Shown here piece by piece: positions 28,909 through 35,685 of a DNA stretch of 64,000 bases. The DNA comes from Candida dubliniensis CD36. Taxonomy: Eukaryota; Ascomycota; Pichiomycetes; Serinales; Debaryomycetaceae. Every line of letters begins with the position of its first letter. The first letter of the stretch is position 1. The stretch spans positions 868,001-932,000 of the forward strand of contig NC_012861.1 of the NCBI RefSeq assembly GCF_000026945.1. Reading direction: 5' to 3'. The translations under genes were made by a program, and so were the position numbers. Below the pieces are notes generated by a model. That model was not told the DNA's origin and did not search any database. It saw only the letters and a list, made by a program, of their open reading frames with translations.

Positions 28909-29652
28909 TTTTTTTTTTTTTTTTTTTTTCTTTCTCAACATATATTTAGTCCTTATATACAGGTATATAACTATGTCACACACTCAGCCAATATTACCGC
29001 GAATACAGGCTGATAGGATCAAGTGCGACATCTAGATAATTACTCAACATCTTACAAATGATGGACAATGACTATAAGTAATTATCTACGACATTTTAGG
29101 GTAACAGAAATTTAGTGTAAGTGTAATACTAATTGGTGGACACACATCCGTTCTATATTGCACATAAACTACATTATTTAAGAAAAATATTTAGAAATAG
29201 TAAAAGAATTATTTTATATTATATAGGTTTAATTAGAGAAATGAAAGTACCATGTACTTGAGTACATTTTAGATGAATATTATCGCTGGTAAAAGGGGTT
29301 AAATGTGTAACCATTCATTAAAAATGGTTCAACCGTAGTTACAGGAATTGAACACTAATGGAAATCCCTATAAAAATTACTATGTTATAAATTAGTTTAA
29401 GTTAACTGCTGACCGTATGCGCTGAGAAGTGCTACGTCAGGACAAACTATAAACATACGAGGGGGTTACAATCATTTATTCAAATAAGTTCAAGATGGAA
29501 AACCTTTTGAGGCCATTTTCATGGAAAGAGATACTCATAGTGAGAATCCCTTTAAAAACCATCATGTATAATGTGTAGTGTAGGGTGTATTGTTGACAAT
29601 GCTAAGGGGCATTGTATAAGCAATCTTCAGATATGATTAAAATGTTTAGTTG
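28909..29652 (-). mobile_element. LINE 3' UTR with poly(A) run
   Basis: Downstream of the ORF2 fragment on the minus strand about 720 bp has no ORF and ends in 21 A. It holds two loosely similar stretches with AATCCCT followed by TAAAAA (near 29363 and 29548). Confidence 0.6.
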
Positions 29653-30813
29653 TTATGTCTGAACGAGTACATTTGTTCCAGCGTCCACATTTTCCTTTTC
29701 CCCATGATTCAAAATTGGTGAACCTCTTCGTCGTTTCACCTTTTGAACCACTTCTTTGATGTACTCGTTTAAGGCATGTAAATCTTTCTTATGTAGATGT
29801 TTGTTTCCAATAATAAATTGTGGAGTTCTCTGACTATTAAAATGTTTCAGCCATAATTCCATAGTCTCACCACATTCAAAAATATGATGTACTATCGAAT
29901 CAGTACCCGTATTACACAATTGGCAAAAGTGTATCTCCAGTTTTTTATAATTAGGATAAAAAGGATAATGTAAATAATAACCAAGGATAAAAAGATGATA
30001 ATCTTGTAAAGATCCAACGCTCTGTTTTTGGACTTTGTTCATATTCTTCCAAAATTCAGTCCAATCTGAAATGGTTAGACTTTTAATTGTATCAAAATGT
30101 TTGCCCCACCCTTCTGGAATAATCGGAGCTTGAGGACATAATTTCCTTGAAGTGTGATGAAAAGTTTGCTCAGATAAAGGTTGTTTTTCAAAATTTGGAG
30201 ACATTAAATTAATAATTTCCGTTTTAGGTTGGATAATTAAATTTGCATAGTCTTCTATCAGCATGATTCTAATTGGAGTTTCCACAGGAGGACCTGTGTA
30301 GTGGACCAATTGAAACCAAGCTTCGAACCACGAAATTTCCAGCTTCGTAAGATTCTCATATACACGTTCTTTTAAATATCTAAATTGTAAGGACGGATGA
30401 CAGGATACTCCCATCCCAAAATAATACCATGGGTAAACCATCAATTTATCTGGTTCTGTTGGCATCAATTTATAATCCTTTGCAATATTATCAAGAATAT
30501 CTTGAATTTTAGTTCTCATAAATTTAATTATCAAATCATCTTCTTGTGTGTATAAAAGATATATCTGTTTACCTCTTCGACCTTTCACTTGATGGTTGGG
30601 GTTCATCAAACCGAAACCACCCAAATGATTAGGGGTTTGTAATCTCTGAAGCTTGAAGTATAAAGGAAGTCTTTGTTGAACTGTTGTTACAACGCTCGAC
30701 ACTGCTGTCGTCAGAATCGGTGAATGTAAATCTCTATAGTATAATTTGGAGAAAATGAAGATATTCATCAATTTCATAATCAACTGATATGAAAGATCCA
30801 GTATCGGTGTCAT
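29653..30813 (-). pseudogene. C-terminal part of LINE ORF2 (reverse transcriptase thumb and zinc knuckle)
   Basis: 386 residues, open throughout. It begins in the post-catalytic RT region (MKLMNIFIFSKLYYRDLHS; LGGFGLMNP) and carries a CX2CX8HX4C knuckle (FCQLCNTGTDSIVHHIFEC near residue 296-315), the usual LINE C-terminal motif. No palm YxDD motif remains. The start codon is probably fortuitous, since the upstream junction at about 30813 joins inverted ORF1 sequence. Confidence 0.8.
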
Positions 30814-30883
30814 TCGAATTTGAGCGTTGAGGTTTAATACAAACAGTGTCCAAGGATCAAACTCTTCAAAAAAAAAAATTATT

Positions 30884-31330
30884 ATGACTACGAACGGTAC
30901 TAATGGTTTTGAAATTGCTGAAAAAGGTGATCATCCGCCTCGGCAGTCTCAAGAGAATCCCCCTGGGAATTTTCAAGAGCTGCCGTTAGATGGTGGTCAA
31001 ATTCGGAAATCATCGTCGACAGATGGTGTTTCCAAAAACGTCGAATTCAATACACAAACAAATGCGCACGAGTCGTGGGCTGACTTTCCAGAATCAGACC
31101 AGATGGATACTGATTCATCTGAATACCCATCAGAAGAAGAAAACGAAGAAGGAAAGATCTCCAAAGGTCCATATCATGCTTTTAAAAACTTCAGTACTGA
31201 AGAATACTTTACACCGGAAACCGCAACAAACAAAGTTGTGGACAATACTACCCCATCTCAAACTACACAATCAATTAATCAAAACTCTACAACATATGCC
31301 TCAGTGGCAGCAAACTACAAATCTAATTAA
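30884..31330 (+). pseudogene. Inverted N-terminal piece of LINE ORF1
   Basis: 148 residues from the ATG at 30884 (MTTNGTNGFEIAEKG), acidic and Ser/Thr-rich, ending in TTYASVAANYKSN at the rearrangement junction. It runs opposite to the rest of the element. The identity as ORF1 rests on its position and composition. Confidence 0.55.
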
Positions 31331-31332
31331 CG

Positions 31333-31684
31333 TAATCTCCAAGATGCTAATACGACCTTCAAAATGTGTTGTTTGATGATTTTCATTTTCATTTATTTTG
31401 AATTTTAGTTTAGCATGTGGCGAATGAATAAGAAAACCAGTTAGATCTTTAAAATGATGCATTCTAAGCTGTGCATTGTGTTGTTTTAATATTGTGTTGA
31501 TATAAGTAAATTGTTCCTGTGAAACGAATCTGATTTCTTGAATAAACCAAATATCAATAACCGGGTGTTCACCTATTAATTTAAGAAAGATATCAAGCAA
31601 TTTCTTGAAATCAGTGGTTTGATAGCTGCCAATACTTTTGGAGCCTATTGTTAGACTGGTAATATAAGAATCATTTCTCTTCAT
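31333..31684 (-). pseudogene. N-terminal piece of LINE ORF2 (AP-type endonuclease)
   Basis: About 115 residues from ATG 31684 up to the junction near 31333. DIWFIQEIRFVSQEQFTYIN contains the conserved Gln-Glu of AP-type endonucleases, and FKDLTGFLIHSP and the GRISILEITLI strand follow. Reading then passes into the inverted segment and stops at 31301. Confidence 0.7.
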
Positions 31685-31853
31685 TCTTGATAATTAACGG
31701 TTGGATTGTAAGTAAGGGTGTATATGTGTGAATTTGGTTTTCGTTTCTTTTTCTTTTTTTCGTATTTTCTATTGTTTTTGGTGGTTTTTGTTTTAATGTA
31801 ATATACTAACGGAAAAATCAATCTTTAAATGCAAACATGTAGGAGTTCTCATC

Positions 31854-32079
31854 CTACTGGAGGTTCGGTGGCAGATTTAGCCCTGGGTCCTTCGTAGGAC
31901 TGCATGACTGACCTGTTGAATTGGTTTTCTTCCTCGGAGACGCTTCATCATTGGAAGAAATGGTGTCCTTATTGGTATCCATTTCTATGATACCAGCCGT
32001 CTTGGTTTTTAAAGTTTCTGTATTGGAAGTAGCTTGTACTGGATCTCCCTTGGGGTCAGTAACTGGAACCAGTGTTGAA
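31854..32079 (-). pseudogene. C-terminal tail of LINE ORF1
   Basis: About 75 codons open on the minus strand, Ser/Thr/Lys-rich (GDPVQATSNTETLKTKTAG; DEASPRKKTNST), ending in TAG at 31854-31856. This is 170 bp before the ORF2 start, the expected ORF1-ORF2 spacing. It is broken on its 5' side by the inverted-repeat segment at 32080. Confidence 0.6.
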
Positions 32080-32380
32080 GAAGGGCACTATTTCGCCTCC
32101 TATCTCATCACAAAGGAGAGCGAAAAAAGATTTTTATGAAGAATTTTTTCGAAATTAAAAAGATTAATAACACCTCCTAAATCAATCTCTTGACTTAGTT
32201 TATACAATTGTAGGGTAATCTGACCTCCTGGATTTGATTGCGCAGACCATTTTGTATATATCAGTTGGTAAAACTGAGTTTTCTTTTGTTTTGTATTTGG
32301 ATGAGTTTTTCAGAGAATTCGGATGCGCACCTTTTTCCTAACAATTTATATGCAAGATAGGAGGCGAAATAGTGCCCTTC
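32080..32380. repeat. 301-bp segment bounded by a perfect 26-bp inverted repeat
   Basis: GAAGGGCACTATTTCGCCTC... at 32080-32105 is repeated exactly in reverse complement at 32355-32380. The interior is AT-rich. LINE ORF1 sequence ends at the left copy. A minus-strand ORF of about 64 codons (32261-32455) crosses the right copy. It could be a MITE-like insertion or the footprint of a local inversion. I see no clear target-site duplication. Confidence 0.6.
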
Positions 32381-32781
32381 GTTCGCTATAGAGAGATTTC
32401 CTAGCCGAATTGCACGACAATACCTGAGACGGAAATTCATCGTGTCGATGACCATGGTGCGAGGTGAAAAGTTTTCATAGAAAATTTATTCTTTCCCTCA
32501 ACTGCTTTTAAGAGAGGAGGTTCAAGTGGTGGAAGGATGATGCCCACAAAGGGTGCGCCATCTGAGAAGATCGTGGTGAGAATACGAAATCAAGATATAT
32601 TTTATATACTTATTTGTCCATATTGTTTTTAATAATACAATCTTCAGATATTTAAATTTCCCGTGTATCATCGCACAAGCGAGGCATACTTAGTACATTT
32701 ACATACTGAGTTGAACTTGACACCTGTGACATTCAAGATAACTGTTTCGCGCACGCTGGCAGACGAACATGAGCTTCTTGA
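32381..32781. other. Unassigned accessory DNA
   Basis: About 400 bp between the inverted-repeat segment and a T17 run. No convincing ORF. Part may be decayed LINE ORF1. CAATCTTCAGATAT at 32639 also occurs at 29621 beside the LINE ORF2 end. Confidence 0.3.
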
Positions 32782-33153
32782 TTTTTTTTTTTTTTTTTCT
32801 GAACATATATATTGGAAAAAACCTATACATACGTAAAGCTTAAGTAAAAGCTCAATAACCTATTTCATATTTAGGGTGGTACAAAAATTTTTTTATAAAA
32901 TCTATACTTAAAAAGTATAGGTGAGAATCTGCAGGCCACATTGGCTGCCCTACTCACAAAAAACCACTATTATTCATTCTTTAATCTTTCTGCTGTTTTA
33001 TTATTTTTTTTTATTTTATTATTTATTTTTTTTTTTATTATTTATTTTATATTTTTTTTATTATTTTTATTGTCTATTTTTTTTTATTTTTATTGTCTAT
33101 TTTTTTTTTTATTTTTTATTTTTTATTTTTTTTTATTTTTTGTTTTTATTATT
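32782..33153 (-). other. A-rich tract, hairpin and poly(A) downstream of the toxin-like ORF
   Basis: Read on the minus strand, three bases after the stop codon at 33154 an almost pure A/T-with-A-runs tract of about 150 nt begins (33000-33153), with two tandem ~23-nt units. About 200 nt of ordinary sequence follows, with an 8-bp hairpin (CTATACTT/AAGTATAG, 32902-32920), and then a run of 17 A (32782-32798). The layout looks like the 3' part of an RNA copied into DNA. Confidence 0.55.
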
Positions 33154-34089
33154 CTAGCACCCGTTTGGCCTATTTGACACACATATTTGGTGTTTGCCTC
33201 TCTTCGCCAAGCTAGTACGATCATATTGATCATCATCCACATTTATATCTCTTTTATTCATATCCTCTATACATCCAGGACAGTGTCCACTGAAGCCATT
33301 GTATTCATGGAAGAACCCGCCGAGTGAATCCATCACTTCGCGTGCCATACACATTTCCATTGTTTGACCACCACCTGACCATGAAATACACGCCTGGCCC
33401 CCATCTCCACTATTCGCGCATATAGCTGATCTGCCTAACAGCAATACCTGACATGAACTCAGTATGATTGACAGAAGAGTAGCTAAGGCAGGTATCCTTG
33501 CTACGTGATTCCTTGATCTTATCCATCTTCCATATAAATACCTCCACGCTCTTCTTACCTTGTTATTATCGTTTCTACTGCTATCATCGTTGTTTGAATA
33601 ACTAAATTCAGTCCCTGTGAGATAGCTGGTATTACCTGTGTTATAGTACGCAATCACATTGTCAACGTATGAGTCTCTCTTAGCGTATTCTTCTTCCTTA
33701 TCATCTAACCATATTCCAGATGTCATCAGTGCTAACCAATATGCAGCCCTGACTGTCACATTCTCAATATCCCATCCATGGGGCTTACCATACATACCGC
33801 CGGCTGACATAAACTCGGCTTCTTCCCAGTTTGTTAACCATTCAGGTGTCGTAACTGTGTTTTTAATATTATCTGGAATTTGCACTAACACGTACGTCTG
33901 ATTATTGACGATGTCCTCCCTCCTGTGAGCATCAGTGGTTTTCATATGTTGGTCTCTTTTGATCTTGTAGTCCATCATCTCGCCGTTCCTGTAATTTCTG
34001 TCTAACACTAATGATGACACTCTGGCCACCCATAATAGTGAACAATATATCACCAAGTAATATTGCTTTAAATGTAATATACTTTCCAT
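33154..34089 (-). CDS. Secreted preproprotein with Kex2-type sites, killer-toxin-like (function unproven)
   Basis: 311 residues from the ATG at 34089; a 15-nt extension would use TTG and is rejected. The N-terminus has a hydrophobic, signal-like segment (about 8-25). Dibasic Kex2-type sites lie at about 44-45, 56-57, 137-138, 279-280 and 296-297. There are three N-glycosylation sequons (about 63, 110, 153), a second strongly hydrophobic segment at about 199-219, and nine Cys, seven of them between 224 and the C-terminus or just before (213, 224, 234, 247, 270, 273, 303, 311, plus 16). Signal, hydrophobic core, glycosylated pro-part and Kex2-released Cys-containing peptides is the plan of yeast killer preprotoxins. 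I do not recognise a specific family. A second ORF overlaps its 5' end in another frame (33932-34168), so the true N-terminus may be broken or displaced. Base composition is richer in G+C than its neighbours, consistent with transfer. It may be inactive. Confidence 0.5.
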   Translation of the reverse strand: MESILHLKQYYLVIYCSLLWVARVSSLVLDRNYRNGEMMDYKIKRDQHMKTTDAHRREDIVNNQTYVLVQIPDNIKNTVTTPEWLTNWEEAEFMSAGGMYGKPHGWDIENVTVRAAYWLALMTSGIWLDDKEEEYAKRDSYVDNVIAYYNTGNTSYLTGTEFSYSNNDDSSRNDNNKVRRAWRYLYGRWIRSRNHVARIPALATLLSIILSSCQVLLLGRSAICANSGDGGQACISWSGGGQTMEMCMAREVMDSLGGFFHEYNGFSGHCPGCIEDMNKRDINVDDDQYDRTSLAKRGKHQICVSNRPNGC

Positions 34090-34168
34090 TCTTAAAATAG
34101 TCAATAACTTTCTTGTCTATTTGTTTTCTTAACACGTCTAATAATTTAAGATACTTAATCTCCGCCAT

Positions 34169-35089
34169 TAAACTCTATGTTGATGAAATATAATCTACTT
34201 TAACAGTTCATATATGTTTTTGTTTTTTTTAGGGATTTTTATTTTGAACAGTTGTATGTAAATATGGATGATCGTATAGAATGGCCAATATATTATTTGA
34301 TAAGTAAAACAGTGTATTAGGTTAATCCTGCCTCTTCCACCCTCTATACCTAACATAGACACTGGGAGAATCTATATACTTATATACCACTCCTTCAGAG
34401 TATTGCTCTCTCGTGCTCCCCGCACGCCTAAGCAGCTTGCTCATATCATTGCTGTCAATGGATATATAATGCTTAGCAGCTTAAACACTTGTTGTATACT
34501 GTCTATCCCGCCTTAATGGCAACGTCATGTTGATTGTTGTCACATTTACCCCTTGTTTTAAATTGGGATCCGCGATCTTTTATATGCAGTCCCTTTTTAC
34601 AGGTGTTTAGTGTTAAAATGTATCCAGTTTCACAGAATTATTTTTAAGCGATAATTAAATTATTGATTGATAATACTTAACCTGTTATACATATATTTCT
34701 ATGTATACTAAGCTGATCTTCTAGATGCTCTATCCTGTTAGTAGAAAATACTTTTCGTCTCCTTTTTATATTAAAAAAGTTATTCCGCGTATAGAACTTC
34801 CGGTCCCGTATTCTGATCACAAGGACACAAAATACTTCCGCTCTGTTGTGCTGGATTGGATCACATGACTAGGATTACGCCACGACTACTTCCAACATTC
34901 AGTAGGTTCGTCGAATTCTCTAGCTTTTGTAGTTCAGTAGTTTCTATATTCTCTATTACTCTTATTCTTTTAACACATATATCACTTTTACTATTTTAAT
35001 ATCTAGTTAATAAATCACGAAACTTTTAAGTTAGTGCATCGATTATTAACATTAAAATAATAACCCCAGAACAAATAGAACACGATCCA
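34169..35089. other. Unassigned accessory DNA upstream of the BAT region
   Basis: About 920 bp. No protein-like ORF, no tRNA. TGTTG at 34842 and CAACA-like sequence at 34890 hint at LTR ends but no LTR could be delimited. It probably includes the promoter of the downstream genes. Confidence 0.3.
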
Positions 35090-35685
35090 ATGGCATCGTT
35101 TCTATTGGATGTGAGTAAGGTTTGAGCGTTGTACTACCTAACGCAGTCTAGGTGTGTCTTTTCATTTTTTCTTCCTCTCACTTTCTCTCTTACTTTTCAA
35201 AAAATTGTGTTCTGCACGAAAATCTCTCCTACTGTTAAGATTAGATTAATGAAAATGCCATACAATGTTGATAATATTAATGATCTTTTTGATTTAAAAG
35301 TACCAGTGGATTAAAAGTGGTGTGTTGAAAAAAACTGACTCAAAATGTGACAATATTTATACTTATAGCTCACTTTGGGTGTGTAGATGTAAATTAAGTT
35401 TTTAGTAATGGTATAGATGCCAATCTTTATATGAAATCTCTTAGTAAGTGACAAGCTGTTTTTGTTTTGCAGAGAATACAATCTGGTTCAAGATCCACTA
35501 AAGTTTTAAAGTATATTACAAGTGGTGACCATCCGGTAAACCTCATTTCATTCCAGGCGGACTTGGCTCAATTGAGCGAAAACGGAGAGTGTGAGTATAC
35601 TTTTTTTTTCACTCACGAGATCAATCAATCAAGGTTTATTTTTCTCATCCATTGAGTCATTCTAGATATCGAAAAGAAATCCTAG
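35090..35685 (+). CDS. Possible three-exon microgene (35090-35110, 35473-35590, 35666-35685), unknown
   Basis: Two GTGAGT donors and two AG acceptors (TTTTGCAG and TTCTAG) allow a 52-residue product: seven codons, then 39 codons (IQSGSRSTKVLKYITSGDHP...LAQLSENGE), then six codons ending TAG. The junctions keep frame (phases 0 and 1). Exon 2 has good protein-like composition and stops being open on both sides. Against it: no clear TACTAAC branch site in either putative intron (362 and 75 nt), and a Gcn4 site lies in each intron, so the DNA may simply be BAT promoter. I do not recognise the protein. Confidence 0.35.
35336..35342 (+). promoter_or_regulatory. Gcn4-type site TGACTCA
   Basis: It lies 425 bp before the BAT start codon. 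Gcn4 activates branched-chain amino acid genes. Confidence 0.5.
35653..35659 (+). promoter_or_regulatory. Gcn4-type site TGAGTCA
   Basis: A perfect consensus palindrome 108 bp before the BAT start codon, followed by a TATAAA at about 35705. It fits general amino-acid control of the aminotransferase. Confidence 0.6.

Follow-up and report, generated by a model that had tools for sequence, protein, structure and literature searches.

A probable killer-like preprotoxin gene with a LINE stump at its end on a Candida chromosome

The minus strand of the window, by which we mean the whole 64-kb stretch of DNA analysed, carries a 311-codon open reading frame (ORF) at 33154-34089. Translated with table 12, it encodes a cysteine-rich precursor with a signal-like N terminus, Kex2-type sites and a layout resembling that of killer preprotoxins. 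The ORF is longer than expected by chance: when the 7258-nt region that contains it was simulated 300 times under a first-order Markov model, the longest ATG-started ORF had 180 codons. The initial annotation had proposed that this ORF and the sequence 3' of it are a nuclear copy of a killer-satellite-like RNA. Its description of the protein was largely accurate: the length of the ORF, the hydrophobic N terminus, the second hydrophobic segment (residues ~196-210), the three sequons (residues 63, 110 and 153) and the cysteine as final residue were all recovered, and only the number of dibasic sites had to be corrected, from five to six (residues 44, 56, 137, 179, 279 and 296). The host had been taken to be C. 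albicans, which is very probably wrong by one species, C. dubliniensis being the probable host, as XOG1 of the window's genome matches PDB chain 2pb1, presumably the C. albicans enzyme and perhaps with engineered changes, at 382 of 400 residues. On the coding strand between 33200 and 34100, G clearly exceeds C, with a GC skew of ~0.18 to 0.32 (300-nt steps), and an upstream ATG at 34168 opens an overlapping 78-codon frame in a different phase from the 311-codon ORF. Two AlphaFold models had mean pLDDT values of 33.9 and 34.6, too low for use.

The ORF is a member of a real protein family with a conserved dibasic and cysteine pattern. A single-sequence search with the ORF against a database of ~5.8 billion proteins returned one relative, P0001, with an E value of 4.8e-31 (494 candidates), and two profile searches each found P0001, P0002 and P0003 (5295 candidates each). 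The window's own protein was absent from the matches, so yeast genomes are perhaps thinly represented in this database. P0001 and P0002 are full length and show 34 to 38% identity to the ORF and 59% to each other. All three full-length proteins have hydrophobic N termini (Kyte-Doolittle) and share, in window numbering, dibasic sites at residues 137/138, 179/180 and 279/280, the six cysteines 213, 224, 234, 247, 303 and 311, and the sequon at 110. Conservation is concentrated in two segments, 67-138 (identity of the ORF to P0001 and P0002, 31/71 and 33/71, respectively) and 181-280 (42/99 and 43/99). The variable segments 28-66 (4/31 and 2/31) and 139-180 (3/29 and 5/36) adjoin the cleavage sites. 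Opposite the four CTG codons of the ORF, the relatives have Ser in 5 of 8 aligned cells and Leu in 0 of 8; opposite its ordinary Ser codons, they have Ser in 17 of 48. Subject to the code used in predicting P0001 and P0002, this pattern suggests that the frame has been read in a CTG-Ser host.

An A-rich tract of 150 nt (33004-33153, minus strand) starts directly after the TAG stop of the ORF. As had been described, it is strongly biased, with 123 of 150 positions being A (82%); the next best 150-nt stretch in the window reaches 66%. The tract is built of ~25-nt units and contains, besides A, 22 T, 3 C and 2 G. The ~200 nt 3' of it had been reported to contain a hairpin and to end in 17 A, and both observations stood: of 200 shuffles of the 205 nt after the tract, 198 gave a less stable fold than the native sequence (z, -2.66), and the A run occupies 32782-32798 (minus strand). 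The origin of both features proved to be different from that proposed. The stretch at 32784-32967 (minus strand), which includes the hairpin, matched the 3' untranslated region (UTR) of a Zorro-like LINE at three other loci of the window's genome, with identities of 71% over 208 columns (L063), 80% over 125 columns (L003) and 88% over 72 columns (L004). The end GTTCAG-A(n) also recurs in L003 and L004. In L004, ~50 nt of LINE 3' UTR and an A tail lie within an unrelated intergenic region. The L003 match ends in an A tail; ~270 nt ahead of it stands a 17-A run that is possibly, but not necessarily, the 5' limit of this copy. In L063, the 3' UTR is preceded by a decayed CxxC...HH...C peptide, a pattern also found near the ends of the ORF2 proteins of L060 and L061, and the motifs around the hairpin of the L060 3' UTR follow, by eye, a similar order. 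Since the 3' UTR recurs at L003, L004 and L063 and an ORF2-like peptide precedes it in L063, the hairpin and poly(A) beside the ORF belong to a 5'-truncated Zorro-like element. A common 3' UTR with poly(A) at unrelated sites, together with 5' truncation, is what identifies this copy, by its sequence, as a Zorro-like LINE insertion. Beyond the A-rich end, its 3' UTR gave no BLAST match to those of L060 and L061, and it thus represents a third Zorro type. A satellite-RNA 3' UTR as the source of the hairpin and the 17 A was ruled out by the LINE 3' end matches at the three loci.

The C terminus of the ORF lies at this insertion. P0001 and P0002 extend 22 and 29 residues past the motif CVSNRPNGC, where the window ORF ends, and a search of the window beyond the LINE for a remnant of this tail gave nothing above shuffles. 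The LINE insertion may therefore have trimmed the C terminus of the ORF. Despite its shorter C terminus, the window ORF retains all six shared cysteines.

The ORF lies in an intergenic region whose bordering genes are presumably BAT and TAF14, and further mobile-element sequence lies on both sides. The Zorro pieces that had been noted beside the ORF were resolved into three. The C-terminal part of a young Zorro ORF2 lies downstream of the ORF at 29445-30868 (minus strand); over 1424 nt, its identity to the intact copy L061 is 98.7%. An inverted Zorro 5' part at 30868-31326 (plus strand) carries the ORF1 start preceded by an 11-A run. The third piece, at 31324-32079 (minus strand), contains an ORF2 start and the region before it and is 91.5% identical over 766 columns to L062. 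The inverted 5' part at 30868-31326 is joined to its own 3' part, an arrangement that resembles L1 twin priming. Relative to L061, the tail of the young Zorro has ~470 nt extra at 28975-29444; on the minus strand, this insert starts with TGTCC, ends with GACA and has TAGTT on either side, features that resemble those of a solo LTR flanked by a 5-bp target duplication. Directly adjoining one Zorro piece where it ends, an exact 26-nt inverted repeat (32080-32105 and 32355-32380, ~250 nt apart) has no further copy in the genome. Upstream of the ORF, an LTR-like dispersed repeat spans 34240-35163, with blocks at 34240-34468 and 35088-35163 that are 80% and 88% identical to L064.

The third relative, P0003 (65 member sequences), records a second encounter of this gene with Zorro. 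Over 133 residues it is identical to the ORF at 122, after which it runs on into an off-frame reading of Zorro ORF2; at the joint, both corresponding window sequences read AACAAC. The window's downstream Zorro shows 0/117 nt differences from L061 in the compared stretch, whereas the Zorro part of P0003 must differ at at least 7 of 117 nt; older Zorro copies in the window's genome are at 78-85%. On these counts, we rejected P0003 as a simple deletion allele of the window locus. The Zorro copies of P0003 and of the window look independent, barring gene conversion, and Zorro would thus have met the gene at least twice, as the first half of the gene in P0003 is joined to a different Zorro copy than that of the window. 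If the copies are independent, the relative lost the second half of the gene at its Zorro junction, and the window has a different Zorro at the gene end. The close match to the ORF and the large number of member sequences lead us to infer that P0003 comes from C. albicans. As a test of constraint, the differences in the toxin part (11/133) and the Zorro part (7/39) of P0003 were compared, and they were not significantly different (Fisher p, 0.13).

The initial annotation had stated that the resemblance to killer toxins lay in the architecture only, with no sequence match, and this held throughout. Pfam gave nothing above cut-off for the ORF or P0001, and P0002 and P0003 have no precomputed Pfam assignment. 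DUF5341 (PF17276), which marks K2 and KHS1, had no match at E values up to 10 in the ORF or P0001; it also had 0 matches in the window's own genome, in a scan that gave none in control genomes either. The best hit in a PDB sequence search with the ORF was unrelated (E, 0.13). No relative was found in prokaryote contigs, which, like the viral contigs scanned, are not expected to include yeast chromosomes, and we found no paper naming the 311-codon gene among titles and abstract openings. The killer-preprotoxin-like character of the ORF is supported by its relatives with conserved dibasic sites and cysteines, though none of the matches obtained in these databases is a known killer toxin. The ORF has a putative secretion signal and conserved Kex2-type sites, as killer-type preprotoxins do, and is predicted to be processed in the same manner. 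In the killer preprotoxin layout, as given in passages of PMC13404059 and PMC13211469, the pro- and gamma pieces are discarded, and the variable pieces beside the predicted cleavage sites of the ORF family correspond to this pattern, a likeness in architecture. By analogy, the product is most likely a secreted antifungal toxin.

The A-rich tract probably represents the 5' poly-A of the LINE insertion or an A-rich target that the LINE entered. In the sections of PMC1965478 that describe Zorro3, each of 19 new insertions with a known 5' end lies at a genomic A-tract and opens with a stretch of 6 to ~160 A, 1 of the 19 is 5' truncated (section 10), and no large deletions and no large duplications are reported at the target sites. 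The 150-nt tract between the gene end and the truncated Zorro 3' UTR could be a leftover of such an insertion. Zorro3 is a different Zorro type from the copy at the ORF, so the comparison is made by extension, and as it draws mostly on full-length insertions, it slightly lowers our confidence in a killer-like gene with a LINE stump. Seven Zorro copies of the window's genome were examined for A-runs. Those just before ORF1 measured 26 (L069), 16 (L070) and 11 (the window's inverted piece); L004 had no 5' A-run, L003 had its 17-A run, and L061 and L063 were not delimited. The length of the tract, 150 nt against runs of 11 to 26, speaks against a LINE origin, as do its ~25-nt units and the predominance of T among its non-A letters (22 of 27). 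The main alternative is a native A-tract that drew in the LINE.

Taken together, we consider it likely that a killer-like preprotoxin gene lies here in the chromosome, with a LINE stump at its end. The gene would belong to an undescribed yeast family of secreted, Kex2-processed, cysteine-rich precursors with killer-preprotoxin layout, in the order signal, variable pro-piece, conserved segment 67-138, variable spacer 139-180, conserved cysteine-rich segment 181-280 and C-terminal cysteine pair. By analogy, the chains would be cut at KR/RR sites in the Golgi and joined by disulphides. The 3' side would have acquired its satellite-like look later, when a 5'-truncated Zorro-like LINE landed where the ORF ends and brought an A-rich 5' junction, the 3'-UTR hairpin and poly(A). 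In a close relative, where the gene lacks its second half, another Zorro copy is joined to it. Should the product prove to kill yeasts, the C. albicans/C. dubliniensis group would have a new family of killer toxins, and the contrast between the intact copy here and the broken one in a close relative would illustrate toxin gain and loss. In Zorro-bearing genomes, the succession of ORF, A-rich tract, hairpin and poly(A) should not on its own be taken as a sign of a satellite copy, since a LINE insertion can produce such an arrangement.

The reading as a satellite-RNA copy consequently keeps the killer-like ORF and loses the 3' side, which is a Zorro-like LINE end preceded by an A-tract that a Zorro insertion can explain. 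It could be kept in a modified form, in which reverse transcription brought a killer dsRNA satellite into the chromosome, the A-tract is the satellite's own central tract and a poly-A-preferring Zorro landed there later. According to passages of PMC7888664, the toxin ORF of a satellite precedes a central poly(A) tract, and here too the tract directly follows the stop, yet with 82% A in repeat units it is not homopolymeric and fits a Zorro 5' junction. The T-rich minority of its letters (22 T, 3 C, 2 G) is unlike the expected decay of a simple poly(A) tail, few relatives were found, and the GC3 of the ORF, at 0.42, is the highest among eight ORFs compared (0.19-0.32 for the other seven), all of which would agree with a satellite source. 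Against this, the DPA motif had 0 matches in the 64-kb window with up to 3 mismatches allowed; the carriers named in passages of PMC7888664 are M1L and seven others, so the motif is not required of all satellites. Satellite 5' ends read G(A)4-6, and the 156 nt before the ATG, where the 5' end of any such RNA may or may not lie, contain no GAAAAA and a single GAAAA at -39, which also occurred in 69% of shuffles. The hairpin, being a LINE 3' UTR, does not represent the structured 3' UTR of a satellite, with its VBS and TRE elements; the 3' flank at 32500-32781 had no unusual structure (z, -0.28), and the flank past the LINE had no other genomic copy except for the 26-nt internal inverted repeat. 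Rfam gave 0 matches in 32000-34300, and three scans of viral contigs, a collection that may hold few yeast RNAs, gave no relative. We regard this modified form as unlikely. Retrotransposon-mediated capture has been proposed for K1-like genes (PMC7888664), so the idea of capture as such is not new; within the scope of those passages, a LINE as the agent would be. An ancestral Candida killer satellite RNA, or its mRNA, fixed in the chromosome by the Zorro reverse transcriptase, with a LINE and not an LTR element as the agent, is in our judgement quite unlikely; under that capture by Zorro, free RNA relatives such as P0001 and P0002 may still circulate.

The gene and the LINE could also have arrived in one step, if the Zorro reverse transcriptase, after copying the 3' end of its own element, switched to the toxin mRNA and inserted the chimera at once, with P0003 as a second chimera with another junction. 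The same order and orientation, toxin 5' and Zorro 3', in both the window and P0003 and the AACAAC present in both window sequences at the P0003 joint agree with such a jump, but insertion of Zorro into or beside an existing gene covers both cases with fewer steps. A repeat of the 3' flank (8-12 nt) was sought upstream of the ORF, and none was found; this says little, since no large target-site duplications are reported in the Zorro3 sections of PMC1965478. We consider a template switch very unlikely. Finally, the same setting could hold an ordinary secreted protein that is not a toxin, such as a cell-wall or signalling precursor, in line with the lack of killer homology in our searches. The cysteine-rich end, the several conserved Kex2-type sites and the variable spacers argue against this, as do the few relatives in the searched database and the broken copy in the relative, which suggests that the gene is dispensable. 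This explanation seems to us rather improbable.

A killer-like gene with a LINE stump has counterparts among known systems for both of its parts. K1/K2/KHS1-type preprotoxins, including the chromosomal KHS1 and KKT, likewise have a signal, dibasic sites, a variable removable spacer and a cysteine-rich C-terminal chain, and some of them are chromosomal, like the ORF. The ORF differs from them in having no DUF5341, no other Pfam match and no detectable common sequence, and the K2 beta-chain pattern given in section 12 of PMC13404059 is, by eye, absent from it. For Klus and KHR, the comparison with the ORF used published descriptions. On that basis, a Klus-type cysteine spacing was rejected, the positions given in section 36 of PMC13211469 being different. 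Klus and KHR, as described in sections 35-36 of PMC13211469, resemble the ORF in having their cysteines mostly in the last two pieces and a hydrophobic stretch in the third. The 3' side, in turn, resembles the Zorro LINEs of Candida, with which the copy at the ORF shares the 3'-UTR hairpin, the poly(A) tail, the A-rich 5' side and the 5' truncation.
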